From the IMG/VR virus record IMGVR_UViG_3300042860_004908, positions 1 through 46,701 of that record: a stretch of DNA of 46,701 nucleotides. The stretch is one strand, 5' to 3'. Under the pieces are notes generated by a model. It was not told the DNA's origin. It saw only the letters and a list, made by a program, of their open reading frames with translations, and made no database searches. Shown here in pieces: positions 1-42,955 of this stretch. The position numbers were made by a program, and so were the translations under genes. Source of the stretch: a virus. Each line of letters opens with the position of its first letter. Position 1 is the first letter of the stretch.

Positions 1-318
1 TTCGGGTATGGATGCGTAGGGTAATACAATATTTCCGTTTCTGTAAGTATGTTTTCCCCTATATCTGAATACAAGTCCCTGTAAGGGACCCCTTCCGTTA
101 TAGTCATAAGAGTAAATGCTATGTTTTCTTAGGTCTGTAAGTTCGGGAATATTATTTGCAACGTATTCGATAATATTGCCATTATATACTATGTTCACAT
201 AGTCCTCTAAACTCATTCCGAACGATTCTTGAGCTTTCTTGGGACCCCTTGATATAAGTTCCTTTCTTAAATTTGTGGAAGCCATTTCTCTTAGAATCCT
301 TCTTATTGTTGACCTCAT
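1..318 (-). CDS. N-terminally tagged phage protein, partial
   Basis: Read on the minus strand, an ATG opens an uninterrupted frame of 106 codons that leaves the window without a stop, so the C-terminus is missing. The first residues, MRSTIRRILREM, match the arginine-rich form of the tag seen on the genes at 1964 and 13585, and include I-L-R-E, a possible (I/L)-x-E cleavage site. I recognise no domain in the rest. A box ATATTTAT lies 7 bases before the ATG. It is divergent from the tagged gene at 547. Function unknown. Confidence 0.75.
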   Translation of the reverse strand, partial: MRSTIRRILREMASTNLRKELISRGPKKAQESFGMSLEDYVNIVYNGNIIEYVANNIPELTDLRKHSIYSYDYNGRGPLQGLVFRYRGKHTYRNGNIVLPYASIPE

Positions 319-324
319 AATAAT

Positions 325-332
325 ATAAATAT
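325..332 (-). promoter_or_regulatory. phage box ATATTTAT before the tagged gene at 318
   Basis: On the minus strand ATATTTAT lies just before the ATG. It is one of about 35 such boxes in the window directly upstream of start codons. Confidence 0.5.
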
Positions 333-470
333 CTTTTTTTCATCTTTTGGGGGGATATTCGCAAACCGAACCACCTTCGGTGGATTTTCCTCCGTTTTTT
401 TCGACCGACGGTCCCCGACCGTCCTTCGGACGGACGTGTCCTTTCCTCATTTATGGACCTCCTCATATTT

Positions 471-519
471 GACCCCTCATGACGGACCATCTCAGATGAA
501 GGGGTCGTCTTTTTTTTTT
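471..519 (+). terminator. rho-independent terminator
   Basis: GACCCCTCAT pairs with ATGAAGGGGTC, with one bulged A, and a run of about ten T follows. The loop contains GGACCATCTCAGAT, the core of an intergenic repeat seen again near 2792, 3092 and 3512. What transcript it ends is unclear because no plus-strand gene precedes it in the window. Confidence 0.7.
484..509 (+). repeat. intergenic cassette repeat, copy 1
   Basis: GGACCATCTCAGAT followed by GGGGTCG. The same core recurs near 2792, 3092 and 3512, each time before a tagged gene. This copy is the only one with a T-run directly behind it. It shares the prefix TCATGAC with copy 2. Confidence 0.7.
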
Positions 520-520
520 G

Positions 521-531
521 ATATATTTATT
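521..531 (+). promoter_or_regulatory. phage box ATATATTTATT
   Basis: Full-length version of the recurrent box, 15 bases before the ATG at 547. Confidence 0.5.
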
Positions 532-546
532 GTGAAATAGATTTAT

Positions 547-1137
547 ATGAGTAAAATTATCAGATTGACTGAGTCAGATTTGATTAAATTAGTTAAACGT
601 GTCATTAGTGAACAAAGCGGAGGTAATCCAATAACATTTTCTAAAGTTGTTGATGTTCCGAATATGTCGAAAGACCAACTGTTTGACTTGATTATGGAAT
701 GGCTTACAACAGCCTATAAAAATATTTCATCCGTTATCCAATTATCGAATAAACAACAAGGTCTGATAGTTTTGAAGGGTGCTCACACCTGGTCTGCGCC
801 CAAAGGTTTTGGGGGGAGAGGTTGGGATGGTAGAATAACACACACAATAAAGCTACAGGTCAAAGATAATAAATTCAAAATTGATATGTTTGATTTATAT
901 CATGACTCAAGTGCCACATTGGGGGATAACTCCGCTATGGGAGGTATGCAGGTTGTTTTAGATTTGGGACTTTTGACCGATAGACCAACTTATGGTGACA
1001 AGCCAAGATATTCTTTATATCAAAATAAAGCTTGGCCTTTGTTGAAAGATAGTGCACAGAAAAACTTTGATGATTTTGTTACCTCCTTGACATCAGGAAT
1101 ACAAAACTTCAAAAAAGACGACGATTTTCAACCATAA
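547..1137 (+). CDS. tagged protein with DUF4468-like domain
   Basis: 196 residues. The N-terminus, MSKIIRLTESDLIKLVKRV followed by ISEQ, is the long basic form of the shared tag; I-S-E at about residue 22 would be the cleavage site. The body, about residues 28-190, begins VVDVPNMSKDQLFDLIMEWL and continues into a segment like the DUF4468 (TBP-like fold) domain common in Bacteroidota exported proteins; this family call is from memory of its pattern. No signal peptide or membrane helix is present. A phage box precedes it. Biochemical role unknown. Confidence 0.75.
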   Translation: MSKIIRLTESDLIKLVKRVISEQSGGNPITFSKVVDVPNMSKDQLFDLIMEWLTTAYKNISSVIQLSNKQQGLIVLKGAHTWSAPKGFGGRGWDGRITHTIKLQVKDNKFKIDMFDLYHDSSATLGDNSAMGGMQVVLDLGLLTDRPTYGDKPRYSLYQNKAWPLLKDSAQKNFDDFVTSLTSGIQNFKKDDDFQP

Positions 1138-1166
1138 AAAAAATTTTTTGTAAATAAAATGTTTCA

Positions 1167-1174
1167 TATATTTG
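1167..1174 (+). promoter_or_regulatory. host-type -7 element TATATTTG
   Basis: Matches the Bacteroidota -7 consensus TAnnTTTG. A TTTG lies upstream at 1147-1150, but at 16 bases the spacer is shorter than the usual 19-21, so the -33 match is weak. It would drive the gene at 1197. Confidence 0.5.
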
Positions 1175-1196
1175 TGGTCTAAAACAAATAAATTAT

Positions 1197-1919
1197 ATGA
1201 AACGAATCCTTGTGGTCGCAATCGCCCTAATTTCATCAACTACTTTATTTGCACAATCTGACGAGTATGGTTCATCAGAATATTGGGCATCTAATGGAAC
1301 GAAGACGAAAAAATCGCAATCCGTCACTCCCGAAAAAAATATAGTAAGTAAAACTCCTCAGAACAACTACAATTCTGACGATACACTTTTTGTTAGTCAG
1401 TTGAGTGACCGTGAGTATTACAAAAAATTCAAAGACAACTATGAATTCAAATACATTAAACTTATGGATGGTTCCGTACTCGGAGTTGGAGACGAAGTGA
1501 AATTCGGTAAACCCGTAGGTGGAAATAGAGTTGCTCAAACAAATATAGGGATTGGGTCAGGAAGTGTTCATACAACCGAAGCTTATTCAACTATGGTTCT
1601 TGGACGTTTAGGATTGTCTGTGATGGGTGGTATGCAGTGGTTACCTTCCGCAGGTATTGTTGGTACAAAAATAAAAATATTGGAAATCAAAAGAAGTCGT
1701 ATTATTTTAGGAACAGAAAGGGCCTTTGCAACTGTCTTGAACCTTGAACAAGCATTCCTTATTGGCGAGTTGGAAAATCTTAAAAGACCCATGAACCGTA
1801 ATGAGGCGATTGCTAAGTTGAAAGAGTCGAAAGACCTTTTGGATTTGGGAATGATGCAACAAGAAGACTATAATAAATTAAAATCGGAATTGACCCCGAT
1901 TATCATGGGAAATAAGTAA
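1197..1919 (+). CDS. exported protein with C-terminal SHOCT-like segment
   Basis: 240 residues. The first 20, MKRILVVAIALISSTTLFAQ, form a clear signal peptide with a Bacteroidota-style FAQ end. A polar low-complexity region follows to about residue 60, then a mixed domain with a glycine-rich hydrophobic stretch near residues 100-150. The last 40 residues (AIAKLKESKDLLDLGMMQQE onward) resemble a SHOCT motif, a short helical module often found at the ends of membrane or exported proteins. It has a host-type rather than phage-type promoter, unlike its tagged neighbours. Probably periplasmic or envelope-associated; function unknown. Confidence 0.75.
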   Translation: MKRILVVAIALISSTTLFAQSDEYGSSEYWASNGTKTKKSQSVTPEKNIVSKTPQNNYNSDDTLFVSQLSDREYYKKFKDNYEFKYIKLMDGSVLGVGDEVKFGKPVGGNRVAQTNIGIGSGSVHTTEAYSTMVLGRLGLSVMGGMQWLPSAGIVGTKIKILEIKRSRIILGTERAFATVLNLEQAFLIGELENLKRPMNRNEAIAKLKESKDLLDLGMMQQEDYNKLKSELTPIIMGNK

Positions 1920-1924
1920 TTTCG

Positions 1925-1949
1925 AACCCTCACCAATCGGTGGGGGTTT
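1925..1949 (+). terminator. terminator after the exported SHOCT-like protein
   Basis: CCCTCACC-AATC-GGTGGGGG hairpin flanked by AA and TTT. The U-tract is short, so efficiency is uncertain. A phage box follows directly. Confidence 0.55.
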
Positions 1950-1950
1950 A

Positions 1951-1959
1951 ATATTTATC
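1951..1959 (+). promoter_or_regulatory. phage box ATATTTATC
   Basis: Ends four bases before the ATG of the tagged GIY-YIG-like gene, directly behind a terminator hairpin, so this gene has its own start signal. Confidence 0.5.
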
Positions 1960-1963
1960 AAAG

Positions 1964-2776
1964 ATGAGACAACTTATCAGGAATATTATTAGAGAACATC
2001 TTACTGAAATGGCTAAAAAAGCTGAGTGGGAAAATTATACTAAGGAAATGGTTATTGCTGATGTTGCTAAATCTTACAACAAAGTAGATTTTAGGGCAAG
2101 ATTTCCAAACTCATACAGGGCTGCGAGAAATAAAGGTTGGTATGACGAGGTCACCGAACCTTTGGTAAAGGTTAAAGACGATAGAGGTAGAATTATATAC
2201 GCTTTTGAATTTCCTGATAAATCAGTTTATGTGGGATTAACGGTGGTTGAAAAAAGAAGGTATAATTCTCACATATTTGGAAATTCACCAGTTGCCTTAC
2301 ACTCCATTTTAACCTCAAAAGAACCAACCTATAAAATTATTGCAAGCAATTTATCACCTGAAGAGTCAAGAGAGATGGAAGCTTGCACTGTAGAAAAGTA
2401 TAAAATTGATGGATGGAAAATATTGAACAAGTATGCAACAGGTAGTTTAGGAAAATGTAGAAATTTTTGGACAAAGGAGTTGGTGAAAAAAATTGCGGAT
2501 AAGTACGAGAAAAGAATCGATTTCAAAAACAAAGACAATAATGCGTATCAAGCAGCTCAAAAATATGGTTGGTTGGACAATGTAACTTCTCATATGGATT
2601 ATGTTGATAGAACAATTTGGACATATGAAAAAACAAAGGATTTTGCAAAAAAATTTAAGACACGTTCCGAATTCAAAAGGGGGAATTACCAAGCATGGGC
2701 TAATTCTTGGAAAAACGGATGGTTAGATGAATTTTTTCCAATAAAATTGAAGAATCAATTTGATAATAGATTATGA
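1964..2776 (+). CDS. tagged GIY-YIG-like endonuclease with three repeated DNA-binding-like modules
   Basis: 270 residues. The N-terminus, MRQLIRNIIREHLTEMAKK, is the arginine-rich tag with two candidate sites (I-R-E, L-T-E). Residues about 75-155 look like a GIY-YIG nuclease: a strand IIYAFEF, then VYVGLT with following R and H residues, and a late glutamate in SREMEACTVEKY. The core is flanked by three copies of a helical module of about 40 residues, with a W/Y at its start and GW(Y/L)DE or GWLDN at its end. One copy lies before the nuclease and two after. Such modules occur with phage GIY-YIG and VSR-like nucleases and probably bind DNA. The tag suggests delivery with the virion rather than a homing role. 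Confidence 0.7.
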   Translation: MRQLIRNIIREHLTEMAKKAEWENYTKEMVIADVAKSYNKVDFRARFPNSYRAARNKGWYDEVTEPLVKVKDDRGRIIYAFEFPDKSVYVGLTVVEKRRYNSHIFGNSPVALHSILTSKEPTYKIIASNLSPEESREMEACTVEKYKIDGWKILNKYATGSLGKCRNFWTKELVKKIADKYEKRIDFKNKDNNAYQAAQKYGWLDNVTSHMDYVDRTIWTYEKTKDFAKKFKTRSEFKRGNYQAWANSWKNGWLDEFFPIKLKNQFDNRL

Positions 2777-2784
2777 CCACATTC

Positions 2785-2816
2785 TCATGACGGACCATCT
2801 CAGAGAGTGGGGTCGG
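2785..2816 (+). repeat. intergenic cassette repeat, copy 2
   Basis: TCATGACGGACCATCTCAG followed by GGGGTCGG, then phage box, ATG and the tag. CCA and TGG flanking the CTCAGAGAG loop can pair, as can GA/TC outside. No T-run follows here. Confidence 0.65.
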
Positions 2817-2830
2817 ACTATTTATTGTTG

Positions 2831-3094
2831 ATGAAATATATTGTAACTGAACCACAACTTTCTGTTTTTTTGAGAAGAAGGGTTTCCCCTGAGGAACTTG
2901 AAGAGATGGTGAATCATACAAAAAAACAAATCGATGGTGGTGAAAAAGTTGGTTATGCCGTTAGAGAATCTATACGTTCGTTTTTGGACAAAACTCTTCC
3001 CGAAACCCACGATGTTGCAGAGTATTGGAATTATTATCATATGTTGGAAAAACCACTTGTTGCTTATATCAAGTTTCAGCTAGGTTTCAGGTGA
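2831..3094 (+). CDS. small tagged helical protein, RRR-type paralogue
   Basis: 87 residues. The ATG directly after TATTTATTGTTG is preferred over an upstream in-frame start that would run through the repeat. The tag MKYIVTEPQLSVFL leads straight into RRRVSPEELEEM; there is no clean (I/L)-x-E inside the tag itself. The body is predicted helical and charged, ending in KFQLGFR. The layout tag, then R-R-R, then (E)-E-x-L is shared with the genes at 3550 and 7868 and loosely with 3899 and 5602. Function unknown. The stop codon lies inside the next cassette repeat. Confidence 0.7.
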   Translation: MKYIVTEPQLSVFLRRRVSPEELEEMVNHTKKQIDGGEKVGYAVRESIRSFLDKTLPETHDVAEYWNYYHMLEKPLVAYIKFQLGFR

Positions 3095-3116
3095 CCATCT
3101 CAGATAATGGGGTCGT
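3092..3116 (+). repeat. intergenic cassette repeat, copy 3
   Basis: TGACCATCTCAGAT followed by GGGGTCGTG, then ATATTTATT, ATG and the tag. The TGA at its left edge is the stop codon of the preceding gene, so the repeat starts inside the coding region. Confidence 0.65.
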
Positions 3117-3130
3117 GATATTTATTTTTG

Positions 3131-3526
3131 ATGAAATATATTATTTCTGAAAACCAATACAATTTTCTTCTTGAGGGTCTTCACGACACGTCATGGCAGA
3201 ATGAAGAGGGTGATAAAATTACTCTTATTAATTTGTTGGATGCAACAAAAGACATCCCCGTTCAGGAACTATCTGTAAAGCAATTACAACCTCATCTTTT
3301 GACTTGGGATGGTAATGATGAGGAGATTACCAAAATTGAAAAGGCGGACTTAAAATACCCCATATTGATTTTCGTGAATGATGATGGTGAGTTCATAACA
3401 ATTATTGATGGACATCATAGAGCTCAAAAAGCAGTCAGAAAAGGTTTGGATACAATCAAAGCTAAAGTTATTACGCTTAGTTCTTTACCCAAGAAAATTA
3501 GAAAAGTATTTTCACATCTCAGATAA
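3131..3526 (+). CDS. tagged ParB/sulfiredoxin-like protein
   Basis: 131 residues. Tag MKYIISENQYNFLLEG with L-L-E at residues 13-15. The C-terminal half reads YPILIFVNDDGEFITIIDGH then HRAQKAVRKG, the strand-turn-helix with D-G-H-H-R that marks ParB/Srx-fold domains; the histidines and arginine would line the nucleotide/DNA phosphate site. The domain spans about residues 75-120. ParB-like folds include nucleases, CTPases and kinases, so the reaction is not fixed. The last residues (FSHLR and stop) are encoded by cassette copy 4. A shorter relative lies at 7088. Confidence 0.7.
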   Translation: MKYIISENQYNFLLEGLHDTSWQNEEGDKITLINLLDATKDIPVQELSVKQLQPHLLTWDGNDEEITKIEKADLKYPILIFVNDDGEFITIIDGHHRAQKAVRKGLDTIKAKVITLSSLPKKIRKVFSHLR

Positions 3527-3535
3527 AGGGGTAAG
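3512..3535 (+). repeat. intergenic cassette repeat, copy 4
   Basis: CACATCTCAGATAAAGGGGT followed by AAGAC, then TATTTATTGTTGATG. Its left part codes for the C-terminus and stop of the ParB-like protein, so the repeat straddles a gene end. Confidence 0.6.
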
Positions 3536-3549
3536 ACTATTTATTGTTG

Positions 3550-3876
3550 ATGAAATACGTTATCACAGAATCCCAATATAATTTTCTAAAAGAATCGTTT
3601 GTTCCAATCTCAATTAGAAGAAGAGCGAATGAAGAAACTCTGAAACAATATATAAGTTTGGGAGAAATGAATTACCCCACCCTTTGTGATGATTTCGGTG
3701 ATGCCTATGACTATGCCGATGCGGTTATTGATTATGGTCTCGATGAATTTCTTGGTGATGCTTTGGAGGACGAGGACTATTATAGTTATATAATGGATTA
3801 TCTTAGAACCTTATGTAGAGATTTATTTGGTCAATATCTGATTGACATCTATGAACAAACTTGTTCAGAGGAATAA
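3550..3876 (+). CDS. small strongly acidic tagged protein, RRR-type paralogue
   Basis: 108 residues. Tag MKYVITESQYNFLKES, then SIRRRANEETL, then an acidic helical body rich in Asp, Glu and Tyr (for example DEFLGDALEDEDYY). Apart from the R-R-R patch it has few basic residues. The same order (tag, R-R-R, acidic helices with an FADxV/YADAV motif) occurs in the protein at 7868; the two are probably paralogues. Acidity and small size would suit a DNA-mimic inhibitor delivered with phage DNA, but nothing in the sequence proves this. Confidence 0.7.
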   Translation: MKYVITESQYNFLKESFVPISIRRRANEETLKQYISLGEMNYPTLCDDFGDAYDYADAVIDYGLDEFLGDALEDEDYYSYIMDYLRTLCRDLFGQYLIDIYEQTCSEE

Positions 3877-3898
3877 ATGGTCGGACTATTTATTGTTG
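3873..3898 (+). repeat. intergenic cassette repeat, partial copy 5
   Basis: Only the right end remains: TGGTCGGAC followed by TATTTATTGTTG and the ATG. The hairpin half is missing because the preceding gene ends inside it. Confidence 0.5.
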
Positions 3899-4204
3899 AT
3901 GAAATATATCATTACAGAAAGACAACTCAAAAATTTGAGAGTAAGAAGAAATATTTTTGATGAATTACCAAAATATGTTACTTCTACATTTAAATGGTTA
4001 AATCCAAAAGCATTCAATAATTTTGATGAATTTATAGAAAGAGTTATTTTTTCTACAACGAGAGATTATGTTGGTGAATTTATAGACGGTCCCGAAGAAT
4101 TCGATGATTTAACAAATATGATTGAACCCACAGTTAGAGACATGGTGATGGGTCGATATTATGATGAGATTTTGGATTATTATAATAATCATTTCAAAAC
4201 CTAA
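3899..4204 (+). CDS. small tagged protein
   Basis: 101 residues. Tag MKYIITERQLKNLRVRRN; the glutamate expected at the tag end is absent and an R-V-R-R patch takes its place. The rest is predicted helical with alternating acidic and aromatic residues, ending LDYYNNHFKT. It probably belongs to the family of small helical proteins at 2831, 3550, 5602 and 7868, though similarity outside the tag is weak. The start is the ATG four bases after the phage box. Function unknown. Confidence 0.65.
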   Translation: MKYIITERQLKNLRVRRNIFDELPKYVTSTFKWLNPKAFNNFDEFIERVIFSTTRDYVGEFIDGPEEFDDLTNMIEPTVRDMVMGRYYDEILDYYNNHFKT

Positions 4205-4205
4205 C

Positions 4206-4213
4206 TATTTATT
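4206..4213 (+). promoter_or_regulatory. phage box TATTTATT before the LamG protein
   Basis: Three bases separate the box from the ATG, one of the shortest distances in the window. This gene is not tagged, so the box is not restricted to tagged genes. Confidence 0.5.
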
Positions 4214-4216
4214 GTT

Positions 4217-5236
4217 ATGCCAAATGTATTCAAATCAGGAAGCACTTCAACCAACGGGAGTATCTACAAAGGCCAATTTACAATTGGAGTTGACACAAGT
4301 AGGGATTTCGGGCCAACCTCAGCAACAAGTTTTTGGAATGGGATTGTGCCAGCAGCAAGTGGTTACACAATATATCAAAACAAAGCAGCAAATGGACCGA
4401 GCATCAGAACTGCTGCAAACGACTCGGCTTTAGTTAGTATTTTACAGAGTATGGGCTCGACAGGTTCGACAGCCGCAAACGTTTTGGATTGGGCTTCACA
4501 ACAATCAAGCATAATGGTTGCTAATATTGATTATCCAAGTATTAGAATGACAACCCAAATTCCCTACCAGACCATGTTATTAGATGCGGGTTATGTTTCT
4601 TCATATCCGAGACAAGGAACAACATGGAGAGATTTGGGCGGATTTAATCAAAATGGGACTTTGGTAAATGGACCGACATTTAGCTCCGTAGATGGAGGGA
4701 GTATTGTTTTTGATGGAACAAATGACTCAGTAACATTATCAACAACCCCTTTGAAACTTGGAACCGGTGCTTGGTCATTATCTTGTTGGTGGAAGGCAAA
4801 TGGTACTCAAGCCGACTTCTCATCGATTATGAGTCTCAATTTCGTTGCTAGTAATATCTCACAAGGTTCTTGGGCCTTCAAAGTCAAAAATGCTACCGCT
4901 CAAAACGTGTTTTCATTTTCATACGCTTCTGCACTAAACACCATTGTTGATGTTACAAGTTCTGCTGCGTGTAATGATGGAAACTGGCACAATCTCGTAA
5001 TTACAAGGAGCGGTACGTCCTGTATAATGTATATGGATGCGGTTAGCGTGGGAACCTTTACATTACCGAATAACTTCAATTTGACAGGGACTGCTAATGC
5101 AAACTTAGGATTTACTCCAAGAGATAATGCTTATATAAAAGGTAATGTTGCATTTTGTTCTATTAATGGTTTTGCTTTGACTGCGGAACAGGTGACCTCA
5201 AACTTTAACGCCCTCAAGGGTAGGTTCGGATTATAA
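4217..5236 (+). CDS. fibre/adhesin-like virion protein with C-terminal LamG domain
   Basis: 339 residues, no signal peptide. The N-terminal 110 residues (Y-K-G-Q-F-T-I-G, then FWNGIVPAASGYTIY) share a layout with the N-terminus of the 389-residue protein at 23047, which suggests a common virion-attachment part. From about residue 145 a concanavalin-A-like/LamG domain follows: GSIVFDGTNDSVTL, WSLSCWWKA, NWHNLVITRSG, then YIKGNVAFCSINGFALTAEQ, the typical strand order. Such domains bind glycans, so this may be a receptor-binding or decoration protein. It has its own phage box. Confidence 0.7.
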   Translation: MPNVFKSGSTSTNGSIYKGQFTIGVDTSRDFGPTSATSFWNGIVPAASGYTIYQNKAANGPSIRTAANDSALVSILQSMGSTGSTAANVLDWASQQSSIMVANIDYPSIRMTTQIPYQTMLLDAGYVSSYPRQGTTWRDLGGFNQNGTLVNGPTFSSVDGGSIVFDGTNDSVTLSTTPLKLGTGAWSLSCWWKANGTQADFSSIMSLNFVASNISQGSWAFKVKNATAQNVFSFSYASALNTIVDVTSSAACNDGNWHNLVITRSGTSCIMYMDAVSVGTFTLPNNFNLTGTANANLGFTPRDNAYIKGNVAFCSINGFALTAEQVTSNFNALKGRFGL

Positions 5237-5269
5237 AAATCAAATTTTATGTATAACGAGAGGAAATTT

Positions 5270-5506
5270 ATGATATTTAATGTTTCAGAGTTAGGAAATA
5301 TTGATTTCACACAAGTACAAGAAACATCCGTTGAAACTGTTAGAGTTTCTGTGGATGGAACTAAAACGTTTGTAAAGTGGGATGGAGAGGATATACCTAC
5401 GTCTGTAAACTCTTTAACAACGAAAGAAGGCCCTTATACCTATTCAGAGATTTTAGAAATACTTGCCACTCTAGAATGGACTGACCCTCTTTCATATAAC
5501 CAATAG
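5270..5506 (+). CDS. small conserved phage protein following the fibre gene
   Basis: 78 residues from the ATG giving MIFNVSELGNIDFTQVQ; an AGAGG stretch lies 6-11 bases before it, which is why I prefer it to an ATG seven codons upstream. The body, with VRVSVDGTKTFVKWDGE and EGPYTYSEILEILATLEWT, resembles small proteins encoded next to tail-fibre genes in other phages, a recollection I cannot check here. It may be a fibre chaperone or assembly factor. It lies 33 bases downstream of the LamG gene and has no box of its own. Confidence 0.6.
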   Translation: MIFNVSELGNIDFTQVQETSVETVRVSVDGTKTFVKWDGEDIPTSVNSLTTKEGPYTYSEILEILATLEWTDPLSYNQ

Positions 5507-5519
5507 TATATTAATCATC

Positions 5520-5555
5520 ATGAATTTGAATGAAAACATATCACGAGTAAAATAA
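5520..5555 (+). pseudogene. remnant of a tag sequence interrupted by TAA
   Basis: An ATG opens MNLNENISRVK and meets a TAA. Read through, the frame continues L-M-G-L, so the whole reads ENISRVK-stop-LMGL. This parallels the tag of the PPK2 gene at 37393 (EEIEKIKIVMGIS). After that the frame loses any likeness and ends 50 bases later inside the gene at 5602. I take it as the dead start of a lost tagged gene; it is very short and could be chance. Confidence 0.35.
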
Positions 5556-5601
5556 TTGATGGGTCTAACAATACAAATCTTTTTAAATTATAACAAGGTA
5601 A

Positions 5602-5859
5602 ATGAAAATTTTAATTACCGAAACACAAAAAACTTGGTTATTAAGAAGGCTGGGAGAAATCGATGATTATGTTGATTTGGCTTTGAGACGTGTTGACCCA
5701 CACGACTATACATTTCATGATTATATCGAAGAGATTGCTTGGCAAGTTGCGGATGAGTATGGAAATTTAAAGAAAGATGATATAGAAACAATTTTGGATT
5801 ATGTTCGTGAGAAATATTGGAAAATAATAGAATTACGTTATTTGAAACAAAACGATTAA
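5602..5859 (+). CDS. small tagged helical protein
   Basis: 85 residues. Tag MKILITETQKTWLLRRLGEI, with L-G-E and an arginine pair at the tag end. The remainder is helical and acidic with basic patches (WQVADEYGNLKKDDIETILD), ending RYLKQND. It groups with the small tagged proteins at 2831-3899 and 7868. No clear phage box precedes it (only TTTAAATTATAAC), which is unusual for a tagged gene. Function unknown. Confidence 0.65.
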   Translation: MKILITETQKTWLLRRLGEIDDYVDLALRRVDPHDYTFHDYIEEIAWQVADEYGNLKKDDIETILDYVREKYWKIIELRYLKQND

Positions 5860-5883
5860 ATGAATTCAGAAGGTATAATTCTC

Positions 5884-5892
5884 ATATTTATT
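5884..5892 (+). promoter_or_regulatory. phage box ATATTTATT
   Basis: Four bases before the ATG at 5897. The spacing and the following A-rich TAAG are typical of the set. Confidence 0.5.
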
Positions 5893-5896
5893 TAAG

Positions 5897-6403
5897 ATGA
5901 GATACATCATAACAGAATCACAATTAAAAAGGATAATCGAGCAAGACGATTGGGTGAGAAAGGCTGCATCAGGACCACAAAAGTGTGGTAAAGACGCCAA
6001 ATGGTGCGGTGATAATGAAGGTTCAAGTGACGGTGGGAAAGTTCGTAGAGAAAAAACCATGAGTCCGAGACAACAAGAAAAATATAACGAAACTGAATAT
6101 TGGAATAATCAACTTCTTGGGGATGTAACTGGGTTACCTGATTATTCTCAAAGAGTTGATGTAATTAAAAATCAAATAGGGTCTTTGTCCGGAAAATTAT
6201 CAATGGATGATAGAATCAAACTTGTTATCAATTTAACTAACAAATTGAACAAACCCTCACCATGGTGGTTTACTAACGCGGTGAAAAAAATGGTACAACC
6301 GAAGGGTGAAAAATTTACTGATAGTGATATTATAAAACTTGTGAATATGAAAGGTGGATTCGATGCATTCAAAAAGTATTATCTGTCGGATGTGATAATC
6401 TGA
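5897..6403 (+). CDS. tagged protein of unknown function
   Basis: 168 residues with one of the cleanest tags, MRYIITESQLKRIIEQDDW, where I-I-E precedes the glutamine. A short segment with two cysteines (KCGKDAKWCGDN) and a lysine/arginine-rich linker follow. From about residue 60 comes a helical domain with LPDYSQRVDVIKNQ, PSPWWFTNAVKKM and FDAFKKYYLSDVI. I do not recognise the family. It has its own phage box, with the next tagged gene 23 bases downstream. Confidence 0.75.
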   Translation: MRYIITESQLKRIIEQDDWVRKAASGPQKCGKDAKWCGDNEGSSDGGKVRREKTMSPRQQEKYNETEYWNNQLLGDVTGLPDYSQRVDVIKNQIGSLSGKLSMDDRIKLVINLTNKLNKPSPWWFTNAVKKMVQPKGEKFTDSDIIKLVNMKGGFDAFKKYYLSDVII

Positions 6404-6411
6404 TATTTATT
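6403..6411 (+). promoter_or_regulatory. phage box ATATTTATT overlapping the previous stop
   Basis: The box begins on the last base of the preceding stop codon and lies 15 bases before the ATG at 6427. Confidence 0.5.
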
Positions 6412-6426
6412 TTCAACCACCCTAAC

Positions 6427-7065
6427 ATGAAATATTTTATTACAGAGTCACAATTAAAGGTTTTACTTGAACAAAATCCATCAGTGAACTCTAATCAATC
6501 ACAAAGATGTGATGAATGGAAAAATAAAACGTTTGTTCAGGGAGATGGTGTAAATACTCCAAAAATCACTATAACAAAAACACCAAAACTAATTGAAGGT
6601 TTGTATGAAGGACCTGATAAAGGTGGATGTATACAAAGAGCAAGTAAGAATGATTACGATTCTCCTCATCAACTTGCGGGAATCACAGTATTTTATGAGG
6701 CGGCCCCCTATCTAAAAGAGCTTTATAAAAATGGGATTTTTGTAAAACCGGACATGGATAATATTTCCATGGAAAGAATAAGAAACAAAAAATTCAAAAT
6801 ATCAATTCCATTATTACCTACCACCGAAGATAAGGCGGTCACGAGTATAAATGAAAGAGGTGGTATGGGACACGAAGGAGATTTAACTGAAATTGATAAC
6901 ATTTTCAACAACCCCGACCACATTTACGTAACGAAAAAAAGATTGCAAGAAGGTGATATGACTGAAACGTTTGTAAGTTTCAGAAATATTAAAAATTTTC
7001 CCATCAAAACAACACAACAAAAAGCCGATAGATTTGCCTCAGAGAAAACAAAATTTGAGCCGTAA
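6427..7065 (+). CDS. tagged protein of unknown function
   Basis: 212 residues. Tag MKYFITESQLKVLLEQNPS with L-L-E-Q. The mature part holds two cysteines (RCDEW, GGCIQRAS) and a mixed alpha/beta body with ITVFYEAAPYLKELYKNGIF and a glycine-rich turn NERGGMGHEGDLTEI. Histidine and acidic residues in that turn could form an active site, but no known motif is evident. It has its own phage box and is followed by another tagged gene. Confidence 0.75.
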   Translation: MKYFITESQLKVLLEQNPSVNSNQSQRCDEWKNKTFVQGDGVNTPKITITKTPKLIEGLYEGPDKGGCIQRASKNDYDSPHQLAGITVFYEAAPYLKELYKNGIFVKPDMDNISMERIRNKKFKISIPLLPTTEDKAVTSINERGGMGHEGDLTEIDNIFNNPDHIYVTKKRLQEGDMTETFVSFRNIKNFPIKTTQQKADRFASEKTKFEP

Positions 7066-7087
7066 ATAAAAACAAAGTATTTAATTT

Positions 7088-7345
7088 ATGGAATACATTT
7101 TGACAGAGACACAATTACTTAGTATAATTGAAAACAATTCACCTGAAAAGGATAATACTGTGAAAATAACGGGTAAAATTTTAGACCCTACCAACATGAC
7201 TCCCGATGAAAAAGAGGAGTTTAAATTGAAGGAAAAGGTGGTTTTAGACAAGTCTGAGTTGGAGTATCCAATAGTTTTAGTTCAACTCAAAGATGGTAAG
7301 TATATTATCTTTGATGTAAATCATGGTATCGATTTAGATTCGTAA
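7088..7345 (+). CDS. short tagged ParB/Srx-like paralogue, probably truncated
   Basis: 85 residues. Tag MEYILTETQLLSIIENNSP with I-I-E. The C-terminal part, SELEYPIVLVQLKDGKYIIF then DVNHG, aligns with ADLKYPILIFVNDDGEFITI then IDGHH of the protein at 3131. It stops right after the histidine, so the helix carrying the conserved arginine is missing. Either it is decaying or the stub has kept another role. A weaker box, TATTTAATT, lies just before the ATG. Confidence 0.65.
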   Translation: MEYILTETQLLSIIENNSPEKDNTVKITGKILDPTNMTPDEKEEFKLKEKVVLDKSELEYPIVLVQLKDGKYIIFDVNHGIDLDS

Positions 7346-7349
7346 TTCT

Positions 7350-7670
7350 ATGGAGGGATTCGAAAGATTTTTGGAAATGTTGAATTTAGTTTACTATGTG
7401 GACTATTCTACTATGGGTATAAATAACAAGGGTATACCTTGGTGTTGTATAAAAGTTTCAGTTTATCAAGATAAAAAGCCTCAGTATTTACAACATCATT
7501 GTTATGAAAAAAATGGTAAGTTTGCAATATATTCCGAAGGAAACCAAGAGATGGGAGTAAACGAGGGTAAATTGAAAATTTGGGGTGATGACCTAGCTGT
7601 GGACAATTATTTTGAAAAATTAGCAAGAACTTTAGCAAAAGAACATTTCTATGATATCAACGAAGAATAA
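7350..7670 (+). CDS. small protein of unknown function
   Basis: 106 residues, untagged, four bases after the preceding stop and with no box, so probably co-transcribed. The sequence has many aromatic and cysteine residues (YYVDYSTMGINNKGIPWCCI, HHCYEKNG) and looks like a single alpha/beta domain. The C-terminal helix NYFEKLARTLAKEHF is amphipathic. I recognise no family. The next frame overlaps its end by 20 bases. Confidence 0.55.
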   Translation: MEGFERFLEMLNLVYYVDYSTMGINNKGIPWCCIKVSVYQDKKPQYLQHHCYEKNGKFAIYSEGNQEMGVNEGKLKIWGDDLAVDNYFEKLARTLAKEHFYDINEE

Positions 7671-7842
7671 AAAAATTATAGAAGGTTTAATATCTCGTAA
7701 TAGAGAAGATAATTTTACTTTCACTGAAGAAGACTTGTTGAGGGTATATAGGGCAACAGGTATACCAGAAAGTAAATTTTTTATAGATTATTATTTGAGA
7801 GGAATTGAAAATCTAACCAACAGAACTATCCACATAATCTAA
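7651..7842 (+). CDS. small protein of unknown function
   Basis: 63 residues starting inside the end of the preceding gene in another frame. It is basic at the start (MISTKNKKIIEGLISRNRED) and then resembles a helix-turn-helix arrangement (FTEEDLLRVYRATGIPESKF). A small DNA-binding role is conceivable but not supported by a recognised motif. Translational coupling through the overlap is likely. Confidence 0.45.
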   Translation: MISTKNKKIIEGLISRNREDNFTFTEEDLLRVYRATGIPESKFFIDYYLRGIENLTNRTIHII

Positions 7843-7851
7843 TTTTTTCTG

Positions 7852-7862
7852 ATATATTTATT
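7852..7862 (+). promoter_or_regulatory. phage box ATATATTTATT
   Basis: Full-length box, five bases before the ATG at 7868. Confidence 0.5.
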
Positions 7863-7867
7863 TTATT

Positions 7868-8218
7868 ATGAAATATATCATTACAGAAGAACAACTAAAA
7901 AGTTTATCTGAGCAAAAAATACCCAGGTCCCTCAGGAGACGATTGACGGAAGATAATCTAAGAAAACACGTTGAAAGGGCGATAGAAGATGAAGGGGAGG
8001 ATTTTTGTGAAATTTACGACGATGGTTTTGAATTTGCAGATGAAGTAATTTCCAACGCGGTTGAGTCCTTTTTACAAGACGAGGAAAACGTTTCAGACTT
8101 AGATTTCAACATTGACAACGAAATTGATTATATGTTAAAAGATGTAATTAAAGAAATGTTCAGTGAGGAAATTTTTGACAGATACGTTGAGGTCTGTGGA
8201 AATGAATGGATGTCCTAA
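7868..8218 (+). CDS. small strongly acidic tagged protein, RRR-type paralogue
   Basis: 116 residues. Tag MKYIITEEQLKSLSEQKIP with L-S-E-Q, then RSLRRRLTEDNLRKH and a very acidic helical body (EDEGEDFCEIYDDGFEFADE, LQDEENVSDLDF). It parallels the protein at 3550 in the R-R-R patch, the E-x-L helix start, a CxxxxDDGFEFADEV / CDDFGDAYDYADAV motif and a C-terminal FxRYVEVC / YLIDIYEQTC motif. This pair is the clearest paralogous payload in the tagged set. Function unknown; DNA mimicry is one idea. Confidence 0.75.
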   Translation: MKYIITEEQLKSLSEQKIPRSLRRRLTEDNLRKHVERAIEDEGEDFCEIYDDGFEFADEVISNAVESFLQDEENVSDLDFNIDNEIDYMLKDVIKEMFSEEIFDRYVEVCGNEWMS

Positions 8219-8227
8219 TTTATCATC

Positions 8228-8962
8228 ATGAAATTTTATATATCAGATTATCAATATAAGGTTCTTACTGAAATTTCAAGAACAAGTGGACATTATCACT
8301 CACAACCAATATATGAACTTATAGACTATTTCGATAATTCTCTTACACGCAAACAGAAAATAAAAATTTTTAAAGAATTTACTTCAAAGGTTTTTGGAGA
8401 TGTTGAAAAACTACCTAAATCTAACATTCTAAATTTTTATTCATACCCCTATACAAGTAGTGCGGAACTTCCAGAACAATTTTTAAAAAAAGATTTTTTA
8501 TCTGGTTTTGCGTTTTATGTTGCAAAAAATTATTTTAATCTTAAATCTGGAGTACAATTGGATTATATCGAAGAAAATGATGAAGGTTTAATAACATATT
8601 ATTTTTTTGATTCAGGATTGAAGATATTCATAGGTAAAATTGCAACAAAACCCAATGATGAATTTTCAGGTGTATCTTTGAGAGTTTCATTATCAACCGC
8701 AGACGATGAGTTGATTGGGACAGGATATGGAACAAAAATGTACTTGAGTATTATAGATGACATTGACTACCTTTCGTCGGATTATACTCTTTTCACAGGT
8801 GCCTACAGAATATGGAAACACACTTTACCAAAATATGTAAATGTTTGGGGAGTAACGGAAAAAGAGATGGGTGCAGAATTTAAAAAAATAGAACCGTCAG
8901 ATAAGAAAGAAGTTAGAAAATATGATTATTTTGTGGCCTCAACCCATTCAGAACTCAGATAA
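8228..8962 (+). CDS. tagged protein with GNAT-like C-terminal domain
   Basis: 244 residues. Tag MKFYISDYQYKVLTEISRT, with L-T-E. The middle is alpha/beta with no recognised motif. Near residue 160-200 the run VSLSTADDELIGTGYGTKMY then LSSDYTLFTGAYRIWKHTLP resembles the acetyl-CoA-binding loop and following strand/helix of phage-encoded GNAT acetyltransferases (GxGxGTxMY, later LxSD and IW). The call rests on that one region. The box is short (ATTTATC), three bases from the ATG. Confidence 0.6.
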   Translation: MKFYISDYQYKVLTEISRTSGHYHSQPIYELIDYFDNSLTRKQKIKIFKEFTSKVFGDVEKLPKSNILNFYSYPYTSSAELPEQFLKKDFLSGFAFYVAKNYFNLKSGVQLDYIEENDEGLITYYFFDSGLKIFIGKIATKPNDEFSGVSLRVSLSTADDELIGTGYGTKMYLSIIDDIDYLSSDYTLFTGAYRIWKHTLPKYVNVWGVTEKEMGAEFKKIEPSDKKEVRKYDYFVASTHSELR

Positions 8963-10969: not shown

Positions 10970-11995
10970 TTATTTTTTTAAATGATTAAATTCCAAAGTT
11001 ATAAGGGAATCTTTAGGAATATTTGCTTGGTACCAATGGAATCTTGGACCTATGAAACCTCTCAAGTCCGATAACAACTTTCTTCTTATGGATTCCTCAA
11101 CTTTTTCTCTTGTCACATTTGGGATTTCCCCTTTCAAATAATTTTCAGGAGTAAGTATACTTTTACCATGTAAAGTTTTAACAACGTCATAAATATCAAT
11201 AACTATCGTTGCTTTATCACCTTCCGTTTTTATTGAATTTATTTTAAATTTTGCTCTGAAATTTGGTGCTTGATTTTCATTTTGACGCCAATACCAATCT
11301 TTATGTTGTGCAGATGATATCCTTTTAGATTGAAATTCTTTTTCTTTAGATTTCAATCTTTCGATTTTACTGTTCATTATCTCATCGTGAGTTGCACCAG
11401 ATTTTAATCTCTTCATTTCTGGCTCATCCAAAACATATACAGTTTCACCCAAATCTTCATTCCAAGACCTTTCCACGGGATTTGCATTACTCATTTGTCT
11501 ACCCGTTGACGAGGAATATCTATTTAAATTTTCGTACCAAATTCCATTTTTAAAAATATAGATTGGGTACCAACCATATGATGTAACTTCGTAATATCCA
11601 ACACCCTTTGGGTCTGTCTTCCATATACCTTCCAAATTCGAACCACGGAAGGGTAGTTGTGCAACAGTAAATAAGTTCGACTTTGTGTTAGGAGTCCACT
11701 TTTGTCTATTTGTTTTTCTTGGGTCAATAAAATTTTCTTTTGTGAGACCAGAATAATCTCCATCTTTTCGAAAATTTAAAAGATAGGATTCCAAAACAAA
11801 AAGAGAGTATTCCTCGGAAATACCCATCAAAGTGAGGGTTTTTTTTATAAATTGTAATAAATCTTCCCTATTTCTTCCTTTTTTCTTGTATGCTTGAATA
11901 TACTTGAAAAGTTTGAAAATCACCGTTTCAGGAACCTTATCATATATGTTCTCGAATAAAAACTCAAATTGACTTTCAGTCAGTCTAAACTTCAT
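10970..11995 (-). CDS. large tagged protein of unknown function
   Basis: 341 residues, starting at the ATG four bases after a phage box and giving the tag MKFRLTESQFEFLFENIYDK (L-F-E). The longer open frame upstream is ignored because it would cross two promoters. Residues 20-80 are helical; the middle has a tryptophan/tyrosine-rich segment (YYEVTSYGWYPIYIFKNGIW) and a lysine-rich helix (NSKIERLKSKEKEFQSKR). The C-terminal 100 residues are alpha/beta (FKINSIKTEGDKATIVIDIY). No family recognised. Confidence 0.7.
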   Translation of the reverse strand: MKFRLTESQFEFLFENIYDKVPETVIFKLFKYIQAYKKKGRNREDLLQFIKKTLTLMGISEEYSLFVLESYLLNFRKDGDYSGLTKENFIDPRKTNRQKWTPNTKSNLFTVAQLPFRGSNLEGIWKTDPKGVGYYEVTSYGWYPIYIFKNGIWYENLNRYSSSTGRQMSNANPVERSWNEDLGETVYVLDEPEMKRLKSGATHDEIMNSKIERLKSKEKEFQSKRISSAQHKDWYWRQNENQAPNFRAKFKINSIKTEGDKATIVIDIYDVVKTLHGKSILTPENYLKGEIPNVTREKVEESIRRKLLSDLRGFIGPRFHWYQANIPKDSLITLEFNHLKK

Positions 11996-17812: not shown

Positions 17813-18097
17813 ATGAAGTCAATTATAATAACAGAATCCCAATTAGTGAAACTATTAGAAACGGCTATGGATTTAGACATCTATGTTCAACCTGTTGATT
17901 ATTCAACTTCTGCAGGAAATGATAGTTTGATTGATTCAATTGATGATAATATTTCCAAACTGGATGAATTAAAACAAATGTTCAAAACTGGTAAGACAAT
18001 TTCTACTGAATCTGAAGGAGAATTTTACAAATTGACTAATAAAATAAATAAATTGTACGACCAAACAAAATTTCAAGACCAATTTACAAGTTTATAA
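17813..18097 (+). CDS. small tagged protein
   Basis: 94 residues from the ATG after a doubled box (TATTTATATTTATT). Tag MKSIIITESQLVKLLETAMD with L-L-E-T. The mature part is acidic and helical, with a serine/aspartate-rich turn (GNDSLIDSIDDNISKLDELK), and could form a coiled coil. Unrecognised. The following small gene is also helical and may be co-transcribed. Confidence 0.7.
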   Translation: MKSIIITESQLVKLLETAMDLDIYVQPVDYSTSAGNDSLIDSIDDNISKLDELKQMFKTGKTISTESEGEFYKLTNKINKLYDQTKFQDQFTSL

Positions 18098-30442: not shown

Positions 30443-30452
30443 ATAAATATAT
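30443..30452 (-). promoter_or_regulatory. phage box ATATATTTAT before the endolysin
   Basis: Minus-strand ATATATTTAT, 17 bases before the ATG, directly at the end of the preceding gene. Confidence 0.5.
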
Positions 30453-31891
30453 TACTGAGACGAGTGAGATAAATTTACGTCCCCCAAAACACAATATTTT
30501 ATGTTTTGAGTCACGTTTGATGTTGTCACGGAAATTGTAAAAAAGGTGACAGGTTGTATTGTTCCAAAATTATTTTTGGTTATTGAATCATAATTGGTTG
30601 GTGAGAACCACAAAACTTGTGTTGAGGGTCTAAATCCAGTAACGTGAGACAAGATTAAATAAGAATCACCCAAATCCAAAATTCCATTCTGATTGAAATC
30701 TGCTGCTTTCCATTGTTTTGTTCCCGTCATCACTAATCCAGGCGCAGTATTATTTGGGGTATTTACATTTTGTACCTCTTGAAATGCTAAATTGAAATCT
30801 GCCGTTGTAATTCCTTGAACACTTAAATTAGGTACCAATTTATAAGTTGAGTTCTGTGCGGGAAGAGTGAAAGAATAAGAACCTGATGATGAAACTGTTT
30901 TGGTCTCCACTAATACATCAGAGCCATTTACAATTCTGTATAAAGTTACCGTCGGTAGTGTGGATAACGTCGGAATAGATATTGTTCCGCTGAGAGTATT
31001 TGTAACCGCAACCATGTTAATTGTATTGGCTGCATAATATTCTGTGAATGTAGCATCAGAGGGATTTGACCAAGTACCAAACTCCACAACATACCCACTC
31101 GTCCAACCAGCTCCATCCGGTAAATCATTCCAACAATTTCCACCACCCCATTTTGTGACTGCATAATCCTCACCGCCAGCATCATTAGGTTCCCCACCAC
31201 ACCAATTTTGATAAGTCCCTGCTTGCGGATTACCGTTGTAGTTTCCTATATTGATTAAAGTACCATTTTCAGGTCCTGCATCTACTCTCCAATAACCTTC
31301 TTGAAGTCTATCGGAAAGGGCTATCCAAATGTTGTTTCCAGGTACGTTCGCACCTATGAAATTCTGTTCATCCTGTGATGTTATTGTAACCAGATAACCT
31401 GTTTGACCTTTGAATGTTTGCGTTGCAGAAGCGTTTTTCGCTGCAGTATATGTTGAGGTACCTGAAATGGGACGATAAAAGTGTCCGTTTGTCGCGTTAT
31501 AGTAATACCCTGATGGATTTACAGTAGTTGAGACGGATATCTGTACATTACCTGTAGATGAACCTGTGTTTATCTTTAGAGAAGCCAATGCATTGTTGAT
31601 ATTCGATTGGGTACCTGTAAAACTGATTCTCGTAATATTGGACCAACTGTTATACCCTGTTGCGAAGGATAATCCTGCTGTTGTTGTTATTGAAAATGTT
31701 ACACCTGCGGGAGGATTTACGAGCCCTACTGAAGTAAGTAGTGTTTCAGAGGTAAAACCATTTACAATAAATCCGCTAGCATCCTGACCCGAAGTGTTGA
31801 TTTGATAAGTTCTACCAACAGGAGCGGAAATAGATTGTGAAAATCCAAAACAAAAAATGAAAGAAAATAATATGGTAAAAATTATTCTCAT
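30452..31891 (-). CDS. exported protein with C-type-lectin-like and dockerin-like domains
   Basis: 479 residues. Signal peptide MRIIFTILFSFIFCFGFSQ. Residues about 130-280 form a C-type lectin fold: GHFYRPISGTSTYTAAKNAS, then GYLVTITSQDEQNFIGANVP, NNIWIALSDR and WCGGEPNDAGGEDYAVTKWG with GNCWNDLP, the classic W-I-G-L-x-D / E-P-N / W-N-D pattern. A beta-rich module and a D-x-N-x-N-x-x-x-D calcium loop (ADFNQNGILDLGDSYLILSH) resembling dockerin follow. It ends G-D-V-N-L-S-H-S-S-Q, just where the homologous part of the protein at 34933 (GDVDRSHSS) goes on. So it is a shortened paralogue lacking the cohesin-like and sorting domains. Confidence 0.8.
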   Translation of the reverse strand: MRIIFTILFSFIFCFGFSQSISAPVGRTYQINTSGQDASGFIVNGFTSETLLTSVGLVNPPAGVTFSITTTAGLSFATGYNSWSNITRISFTGTQSNINNALASLKINTGSSTGNVQISVSTTVNPSGYYYNATNGHFYRPISGTSTYTAAKNASATQTFKGQTGYLVTITSQDEQNFIGANVPGNNIWIALSDRLQEGYWRVDAGPENGTLINIGNYNGNPQAGTYQNWCGGEPNDAGGEDYAVTKWGGGNCWNDLPDGAGWTSGYVVEFGTWSNPSDATFTEYYAANTINMVAVTNTLSGTISIPTLSTLPTVTLYRIVNGSDVLVETKTVSSSGSYSFTLPAQNSTYKLVPNLSVQGITTADFNLAFQEVQNVNTPNNTAPGLVMTGTKQWKAADFNQNGILDLGDSYLILSHVTGFRPSTQVLWFSPTNYDSITKNNFGTIQPVTFFTISVTTSNVTQNIKYCVLGDVNLSHSSQ

Positions 31892-33342
31892 AGATTTACT
31901 TTACTACCAATTAGAAAAAAGGAAAGGATTGGAAAGTCAGGATTTGTTGAAAGATTGGCTTTGTAATTTACGTTGAACTTGAACCTCCTTGAAATTTGAT
32001 AATCAAATCCACTTCCCAAAAAAGCACTAAATGTTCTATCTGTCACGGTGATTTTATCTACAGAAGAATAAACAACGGGAGTTGATATTAAATAAATTTC
32101 AGGAGATATTGTAAGTTTTTTATTGGGTGAAAATGGTCTCGTATAAAATGCGGTAAATGACGGACTGATAAACAAATTACTATCCGATGGTAGTTTTGCA
32201 ATTGCTCCACTGACGTTAAATCCTGTAATACCCCATTTCTTTGCGTTTATTATCATACTATAACCCAAGAATGAAAATACGTTACCGTAGGAATATGCCC
32301 CCGTTAAATTGACGTTATGAACGAATTTGAGGGTTCCTGATTGATTCATTTTTATCTTGGTGTATCTTGAGTTGATTGCAAATTGTTTGAAGTTAAACCA
32401 AACCATTCCTGTTACACCCCAAGAACTTGTTCCCATAAGAGAGGTTCTTGACATTCCGATGTTTGCAATACCAGTAAAAGATTTATCTAAATTTTGTGCT
32501 GAGGTCAAATCAGAAGAAACGATAAGAGGATTTTGGTTTCCTGATTTTCCATTACCCTTTTTTCCTCCACCACTCGAACCACCACTTTCAGAACCTTTGT
32601 CGTTTCTGACCTCTACGTTCATTAGGGTTGTTGCAACTACCTCCGAACCTTTTTCCTTATCTTTCTCACTACCTCCCGAATTAGAATTTGAAGATACGCC
32701 ACCACCGCCACCATTCCCACCAGTGTTATTATTACCGCTCCCCCCACTATTATTACCGCCAGTTTGAGAACCTTGGCCACCAGTTTGAGAACCTCCCACA
32801 GGAACAGACCCGTTGCCTTGACCGCTTGAGTTATTTGATGAACTTGTAGAACCATTCCCATTAGAATTAGTAACAGAAGTGGAATTGCTAGAATTACTAC
32901 TTTCATTTTTATTTTTTTTCTTTTCTGAACTGCTGTTACTTCCTTTGGATGCTGCGTCGTTTCCACCCATAGATGAACCCTGCATCACAGAGGAATTTAT
33001 TTGACCCACAACACTACTAACAACATTACCGATAACTTGTGCTGTAATTTGATTTCTTGTAACTGTAACCGATTGAACTGAGCATGGGGTCAATTTTCTG
33101 TAATCGGCATATGCTTGATTGACCCAAGCGGCAAAGGCACCACTTGCCACATCTTGTGCGGTAAATGATGCCGAACGACCATAAAAATATACTACCGTAC
33201 CCCCTTGAATTGGAATTGAAAAGTTTGTTACTTCTTTTGTGCAGGGGTCGATGAATGTATAGACAACATTTTGTGCCTCAGCTTTGAAGCTGAGAAACAA
33301 GATAAAGGAAATACTTAAAAATGTTTTTAATCTTTTCCACAT
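31888..33342 (-). CDS. exported protein with low-complexity linker and outer-membrane-barrel-like C-terminus
   Basis: 484 residues. Signal peptide MWKRLKTFLSISFILFLSFK then AEAQ. A small N-terminal domain to about residue 120 (FYGRSASFTAQDVASGAFAA) precedes about 150 residues of Ser, Asn, Gly and Lys repeats. The last 200 residues alternate hydrophobic/polar strands (WGVTGMVWFNFKQFAINSRY, YTRPFSPNKKLTISPEIYLI) and end FFLIGSKVNL, like an outer-membrane beta barrel. The gene joins its neighbours by TAA-ATG and ATGA contacts. The N-terminal segment could form a channel partner of the CsgG-like protein upstream; that is conjecture. Confidence 0.7.
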   Translation of the reverse strand: MWKRLKTFLSISFILFLSFKAEAQNVVYTFIDPCTKEVTNFSIPIQGGTVVYFYGRSASFTAQDVASGAFAAWVNQAYADYRKLTPCSVQSVTVTRNQITAQVIGNVVSSVVGQINSSVMQGSSMGGNDAASKGSNSSSEKKKNKNESSNSSNSTSVTNSNGNGSTSSSNNSSGQGNGSVPVGGSQTGGQGSQTGGNNSGGSGNNNTGGNGGGGGVSSNSNSGGSEKDKEKGSEVVATTLMNVEVRNDKGSESGGSSGGGKKGNGKSGNQNPLIVSSDLTSAQNLDKSFTGIANIGMSRTSLMGTSSWGVTGMVWFNFKQFAINSRYTKIKMNQSGTLKFVHNVNLTGAYSYGNVFSFLGYSMIINAKKWGITGFNVSGAIAKLPSDSNLFISPSFTAFYTRPFSPNKKLTISPEIYLISTPVVYSSVDKITVTDRTFSAFLGSGFDYQISRRFKFNVNYKANLSTNPDFPILSFFLIGSKVNL

Positions 33343-34059: not shown

Positions 34060-34060
34060 T

Positions 34061-34600: not shown

Positions 34601-34603
34601 ACA

Positions 34604-34927: not shown

Positions 34928-34932
34928 TTTTT

Positions 34933-42922: not shown

Positions 42923-42926
42923 AACA

Positions 42927-42950
42927 ATAAATATACTCGTAGTATTTATT
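42927..42950. promoter_or_regulatory. divergent pair of phage boxes
   Basis: Minus-strand TATATTTAT (42927-42935) serves the tagged membrane protein and plus-strand TATTTATT (42943-42950) serves the gene at 42956. Confidence 0.6.
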
Positions 42951-42955
42951 ATAGT

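Follow-up and report, generated by a model that had tools for sequence, protein, structure and literature searches.

How can a phage replace one small protein with another and still leave the newcomer with the same upstream signals and the same first residues? The question is raised by contig IMGVR_UViG_3300042860_004908 of IMG/VR, 46,701 nt long with 33% GC and hereafter called the window in its entirety, which we describe as coming from a large virus of Bacteroidota-type bacteria and whose first 9 kb form an array of small genes, mostly on the plus strand. Running through this array is a handle, meaning a terminator-like core, a promoter-like box, a start codon and a peptide tag of about 14-25 residues that usually ends in (I/L)xE, and behind each handle stands an unrelated payload. 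We consider it probable, if well short of settled, that a T4-related jumbo phage keeps here a hypervariable array of cargo genes, in which capsid-targeted and likely injected proteins are shuffled by homologous recombination at the handle. Genes were called by codon score, and records G020 to G023 together with 3300021599_002910, being one virus in the stretches compared, were counted once.

Direct evidence for exchange comes from relative G012, whose sequence aligns with window positions 2794-3113 from core to core. Within this alignment the handle (2794-2855) differs at 12 of 62 nt, while the payload (2856-3107) differs at a single position and is identical at 251 of 252; elsewhere the two genomes are collinear at 72.8% identity over 19,556 nt, and the best of 1,540 segments of 252 nt reaches 88.5%. 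On the 5' side the break falls somewhere between 2845 and 2977, and on the 3' side the block ends in the next core (3108-3113). One mismatch in 252 on such a background indicates that the payload of the gene at 2831 moved recently, while core, box, start and the opening codons of the tag stayed native to each phage, much as a preliminary description of the sequence had anticipated when it proposed that payloads are exchanged while promoter and tag stay in place.

Blocks of homology among other relatives also end at the hairpin core. Homology between G012 and G013 runs at 98% over 151 nt, covering the core and the GC-rich anchor that opens the array, and then gives way to unrelated sequence; between G012 and G019 it runs at 89% over 663 nt and stops at the same core end. 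The G013 gene that directly follows the anchor core sits about 980 nt further on in G019, and G022 (321 kb) has the same anchor and six consecutive handle units with two tag classes and other payloads. The flanks of the array are syntenic among the relatives compared. Blocks of at least 100 nt have 24 ends in all, 7 of them no more than 15 nt from a core, a zone that takes in 1.3-6.2% of positions. The relatives do not show a locus whose gene order and content are conserved and whose repeats have no exchange nearby. The preliminary description had the repeat driving both swapping and duplication: exchange at the handle is indeed seen in related genomes, whereas a driving role for the repeat is something that we infer from the breakpoints, and duplication fares less well, since among the window's tagged genes compared only those at 3550 and 7868 are clear payload paralogues (28% identity). 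A search for relatives with the proteins at 10970-11995 and 2831-3094 returned only the same virus or G012. One contig of the same virus (L004, 65 kb) starts at window position 3109, inside core copy 3, perhaps because the neighbours vary there in the population.

The core (ATCTCAGA-N4-GGGGT, searched as ATCTCAGANNNNGGGGT) occurs exactly at 489, 2797, 3097 and 3516, always on the plus strand; allowing up to two mismatches raises the count to 5, where 0.91 would be expected and none of 100 shuffles gets that far. The box and start (TATTTATTGTTGATGAA) are exact at 2819, 3538 and 3887 and carry one mismatch at 3119, and with up to three mismatches they give 7 matches, again reached in 0 of 100 shuffles. 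A cassette recurring four to five times, as first described, is found only by counting partial copies. The core is exact four times, box, start and tag come together four times, and the whole composite of core, box, ATGAA and MKYIITESQ-like tag is present three times (2796, 3096 and 3515; the 73-nt repeat family D1). At 484 the core is followed by a T10 run and a box that lead into another tag (MSKIIRLTESDL...), while at 3887 GGTCGGACTATTTATTGTTGATGAAATA is retained and the core is lost. Ten handles chosen from three phages, not the full set, give the consensus TGACCATCTCAGAnAAAGGGGTCGTGATATTTATTGTTGATGAA. The features of the array are as follows.

1-318, minus strand: divergent tagged gene (MRSTIRRILRE...), preceded by a box and running off the contig end
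350-445, plus strand: GC-rich anchor, containing a pair of short hairpins, that precedes the first core in conserved form in five distinct phages
471-519, plus strand: hairpin copy 1, stem GACCCCTCAT/ATGAAGGGGTC then T10, terminator-like
524-1137, plus strand: box TATTTAT (524-530) and tagged gene 547-1137, tag MSKIIRLTESDLIKLVKRVISEQ then DUF4468
1952-2776, plus strand: box and tagged gene 1964-2776, tag MRQLIRNIIREHLTE then a phrog_20046 protein, GIY-YIG-like by eye
2775-2814, plus strand: hairpin copy 2, a core match that folds
2819-2827, plus strand: box TATTTATTG of the following unit
2831-3094, plus strand: tagged gene (MKYIVTEPQ...), payload exchanged with G012
3093-3114, plus strand: core copy 3, overlapping the stop of gene 2831-3094
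3119-3526, plus strand: box and tagged gene 3131-3526, tag MKYIISENQYNFLL/E then a ParB-like payload
3515-3532, plus strand: core copy 4, providing the final codons of gene 3131-3526
3538-3876, plus strand: box and tagged gene 3550-3876, paralogue of 7868-8218
3879-4204, plus strand: partial handle without core and tagged gene 3899-4204
4206-5236, plus strand: box and untagged gene 4217-5236 with a Laminin_G_3 domain
5520-5564, plus strand: relic of another tag class (MNLNENISRVK-stop-LMG) with no payload
5602-8962, plus strand: more tagged genes, starting at 5602, 5897, 6427, 7088, 7868 and 8228

The description of the core as a hairpin holds for two of the four window copies: copies 1 and 2 possess the 5' arm and outdo most shuffled sequences in folding (z of -2.0 and -2.4), whereas copies 3 and 4 do neither (z of -0.25 and -0.55). 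We read the core as a terminator-like element, some copies of which are whole and others eroded. The ends of the repeat do lie inside neighbouring coding regions, as had been noticed from the start: the TGA of gene 2831-3094 is the beginning of TGACCATCTCAGA, and gene 3131-3526 terminates in CATCTCAGATAA (His-Leu-Arg-stop). The ParB-like payload ends in His-Leu/Ile/Met-Asn in many relatives and in His-Leu-Arg in the window, because there the core provides the gene end, as though the two had been joined at the common letters CATCT. In several relatives (L010, L021, L022 and similar) the next tagged start adjoins or overlaps the ParB-like stop (TAATG, ATGA), with no core between. An exact search for the 17-mer TGACGGACCATCTCAGA gave no match, and a search with the core pattern returned four stretches, of which L100 and L101 were set aside as unrelated.

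In five distinct phages a GC-rich anchor is followed by a variable gene array. The anchor lies at 350-445 in the window, 5450-5540 in L111 and 6265-6356 in L165, its hairpins read CCACC-TTC-GGTGG and CCGTCC-TTC-GGACGG, and two-sided changes occur in 4 of the 20 predicted pairs (three sequences compared). The anchor pattern TATTCGCAAACCGAA returned 36 stretches, among which inspection left only L099, L102 and L141 as true anchors; an Rfam search of window positions 1-6000 gave a single match, under the cut-off and attributed to chance.

Enrichment of the box is a general feature of these genomes. Of 1,032 ATG starts in seven sequence sets (the window, L068-L098, L111-L117 and L180-L184), whose genes were called without regard to the box, 297 have TATTTAT within the preceding 40 nt; the reverse complement stands there in 60 cases, and 16.8 would be expected. 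The spacing of the box from the ATG is bimodal, at 4-6 nt (143 cases) and 13-17 nt (96), and in the handle units it is 4-5 nt. The box would play the part of a -10 element in a phage promoter, and leaderless messages would result from the short spacing. By analogy with T4 it may be a late promoter; a sigma factor is encoded in G003. The leaderless messages suggested by the short-spacing class may also bear on the ribosomal protein S21 of similar phages, as far as these are portrayed in the accessible part of one report (PMC9723584). At window positions 42923-42955 two divergent boxes share the single 33-nt gap that separates a tagged gene from its neighbour and make a compact candidate bidirectional promoter.

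The tags form a family and show a T4-type trait, in that proteins with nothing else in common begin with a short, conserved leader. Five tag patterns match 122 of 918 gene starts and only 9 of 2,472 internal methionines in five genomes, in a count whose gene calls favoured boxes and from which box rates of tagged and untagged genes are not drawn. The main classes are MKxIITESQxxxLLE, MNLQENIxRIKxMMGxxxE, MKKIIRLTESDLxxIVKRVIxE and MKELIKKILREE; as regular expressions they overlap (A with E), and some of the matches in G001 look like false positives. Tagged payloads mostly have no Pfam match, and their PHROGs matches are ParB-like, ATPase-like and phrog_20046. The phrog_20046 gene at 1964 is tagged, and the homologues examined (from two Vibrio phage and one 636-kb phage) begin without a tag. 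Beyond the array, positions 30452-36834 hold a run of minus-strand proteins, several with N-termini that look by eye like signal peptides; a Pfam match at 17813-18097 was dismissed as chance (17.0 bits against a cut-off of 27).

Tag exchange is clearest in the ParB-like payload (EGLHDTSW...), followed through 44 loci including the window, many of them near-identical copies (of 48, four partial loci were omitted; one further locus lacks the motif). The payload is joined directly to a tag in 34 of the 44, the other ten having an intervening domain, and 32 of the 34 direct joints read (I/L)xE, the cleavage motif of the T4 prohead protease. Nineteen distinct sequences precede it, and at least three tag classes are represented among them: the window's own tag, the MNLQEN tag and the MKKIIRLTE tag. 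Downstream, an open reading frame starts near the ParB-like stop in 21 of the 44 loci; these fall into 13 payload clusters, and 20 of the 21 are tagged.

The T4 system offers a ready interpretation of such leaders. The passages available of one account have gp21 cutting at L/I-X-E and leaders of 10-19 residues targeting the T4 internal proteins to the head (PMC9026906). The tag is most likely a capsid-targeting propeptide of this kind. Larger relatives encode the T4-type proteins concerned: a gp21-type protease (S77) is present in 9 of 10 contigs of one relative set and 4 of 8 of another, a gp23-type capsid protein in 9 of 10 relative contigs, and a T4-like gp23/gp21/UvsX/sigma set in relatives G001 and G003. 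In the six records examined the N-terminal part of the capsid protein has FLINE/A (or YLINE/A) near residue 60, which matches the tag ends. The peptide would load its payload into the prohead and then be removed by the gp21-type protease, leaving a trimmed payload to be packed in the head and injected. Since every unit shares the handle, homologous recombination can replace the payload: co-infecting phages would recombine at the common handle, by means of a UvsX-like protein, and the recipient would retain its own terminator, its promoter and the start of its own tag.

That said, several observations count against this picture. Of the 122 tagged proteins only 83 carry [ILM]xE at residues 10-30 and 39 lack it, so the cleavage site is not universal, although the share still exceeds that of the untagged proteins (249 of 796). 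Neither a protease nor a capsid gene was seen in the 46.7-kb contig of the window itself. Clear-cut payload exchange was seen once, and only the 7 of 24 homology-block ends adjoin a core, several of them sharing one anchor boundary and so not being independent. Tagged homologous pairs differ in class in 9 of 51 cases, some merely by regular expression, and 42 keep it. Nor are the tags homogenised in DNA, a possibility rejected because identical codons hardly exceed the expectation from codon usage (38 against 31.7, and 26 against 22.4); the tag is therefore kept by selection on the peptide, and the shared DNA would come mainly from the non-coding handle of core, box and start. Finally, G001, G003, G004 and G008 are without the core, yet arrays of tagged genes whose neighbours vary are present in G001 and G003. 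The core is thus not required; it seems to help define the handle of the window's clade without being essential to it.

The exchange could be real and the peptide some other sorting or binding tag, or an enhancer of translation starts on leaderless messages, a reading that we hold to be rather unlikely. It draws on the 143 boxes found 4-6 nt before an ATG, on the A/T-rich first codons and on the tagged proteins that lack [ILM]xE. Yet several unrelated tags serve one payload and are joined to it at xE, a translation enhancer needs no conserved peptide while the tag is conserved mainly as protein, and these phages possess the gp21/gp23 system. An integron-like system, with the anchor as an attI-like and the core as an attC-like site at which a site-specific recombinase shuffles cassettes, would account for the succession of anchor and array in five distinct phages and for blocks that stop at the core. 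It is improbable nonetheless: neither a tyrosine recombinase (PF00589) nor a serine recombinase (PF00239) was found in any of 12 contigs, several of them fragments, the clear exchange broke within the tag on its 5' side rather than at the core, and relatives without the core also have varied tagged neighbours. A UvsX-like recombinase is encoded in G001, and weak RecA matches, below the family cut-off, occur in 6 of the 12 contigs; homologous recombination is preferred to an integron-like enzyme on these grounds.

Two further explanations would do away with exchange altogether. Under vertical descent with loss and decay, which we regard as very improbable, the repeats would be reused terminators and promoters and the apparent swapping would be differential loss. 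Both the syntenic flanks and the constancy of tag class in most homologous pairs agree with it, but 251 of 252 identical positions in a 73% background and a single payload under different tags need recombination, and for gene 2831 the idea is contradicted. A wrong join of the first 3.1 kb at the repeat during assembly might be read from the start of L004 inside core copy 3; it is scarcely credible given that the order of anchor and array is identical in four other viruses and that G012's own contig has the same gene between two cores.

If capsid targeting and exchange at the handle are both true, the tag and handle together list the probable injected cargo of an uncultured jumbo phage group from sequence data. 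That cargo would amount to dozens of small proteins, candidates for blocking host defences, and the locus would be a clear natural case of protein swapping without loss of promoter or address label. The differing address peptides would also be available for testing what the T4-type prohead core recognises. More tentatively still, and with considerable doubt, one may picture an anchored, expandable array, a locus devoted to the purpose, in which Bacteroidota jumbo phages gather and trade injected proteins by setting payloads behind a standard handle of control and address signals. Several interchangeable address peptides would then be recognised by a single packaging machine, and recombination at anchor and core might have a mechanism of its own. 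A literature search, chiefly outside subscription papers, found no account of these tags or of the array.

The nearest precedents come from T-even phages, whose ip loci were reportedly a subject of work by Repoila in 1994. As portrayed in the accessible parts of two sources, these loci are hotspots of variation, encoding injected proteins that are unrelated apart from a shared leader (PMC12373910, PMC3012670). The likeness is this: the mature T4 proteins IPI-IPIII and Alt are likewise unrelated and share only an N-terminal leader, and the ip leaders are cut after L/I-X-E by gp21, as far as the excerpts tell (PMC9026906, PMC12373910, PMC3012670). What sets the present system apart is that its leaders belong to several classes, that a genome can hold as many as dozens of tagged genes and that a core and box recur upstream; it is known here from sequence alone.

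Cassettes of a promoter and a stem-loop (promoter-early stem-loop, or PeSL) are said to have been linked to modular shuffling by Arbiol in 2010 and Comeau in 2014. In the available portion of one text, such repeats of T4-type phages are reported to mediate shuffling (PMC4503421). The array resembles them in module exchange at the motif, which is observed here beside a promoter-like box and a core of which two of the four window copies fold as a stem-loop. It differs in that the handle reaches into the gene, where it encodes the peptide tag, in that the first unit is preceded by an anchor, and in that the strongly enriched box is a candidate promoter where theirs is an early one. The relatives (290-321 kb, with gp21 and gp23) are also like the bS21 jumbo phages of freshwater Bacteroidetes, a likeness of size and genes rather than of a tree; what is accessible of their description gives 293-331 kb, 31-34% GC and a gp21/MCP/portal cluster, and has no occurrence of the word 'promoter' (PMC9723584). 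Integron arrays too combine an anchor, repeated joints and variable genes; the present one differs in that no integrase was found (12 contigs, several of them fragments), that the 5' breakpoint lies in the tag and that each unit has its own promoter-like box. The array unites the ideas of the ip locus and of the PeSL in another phage group, and adds to them several leader classes, an anchor and a near-intact example of one exchange.

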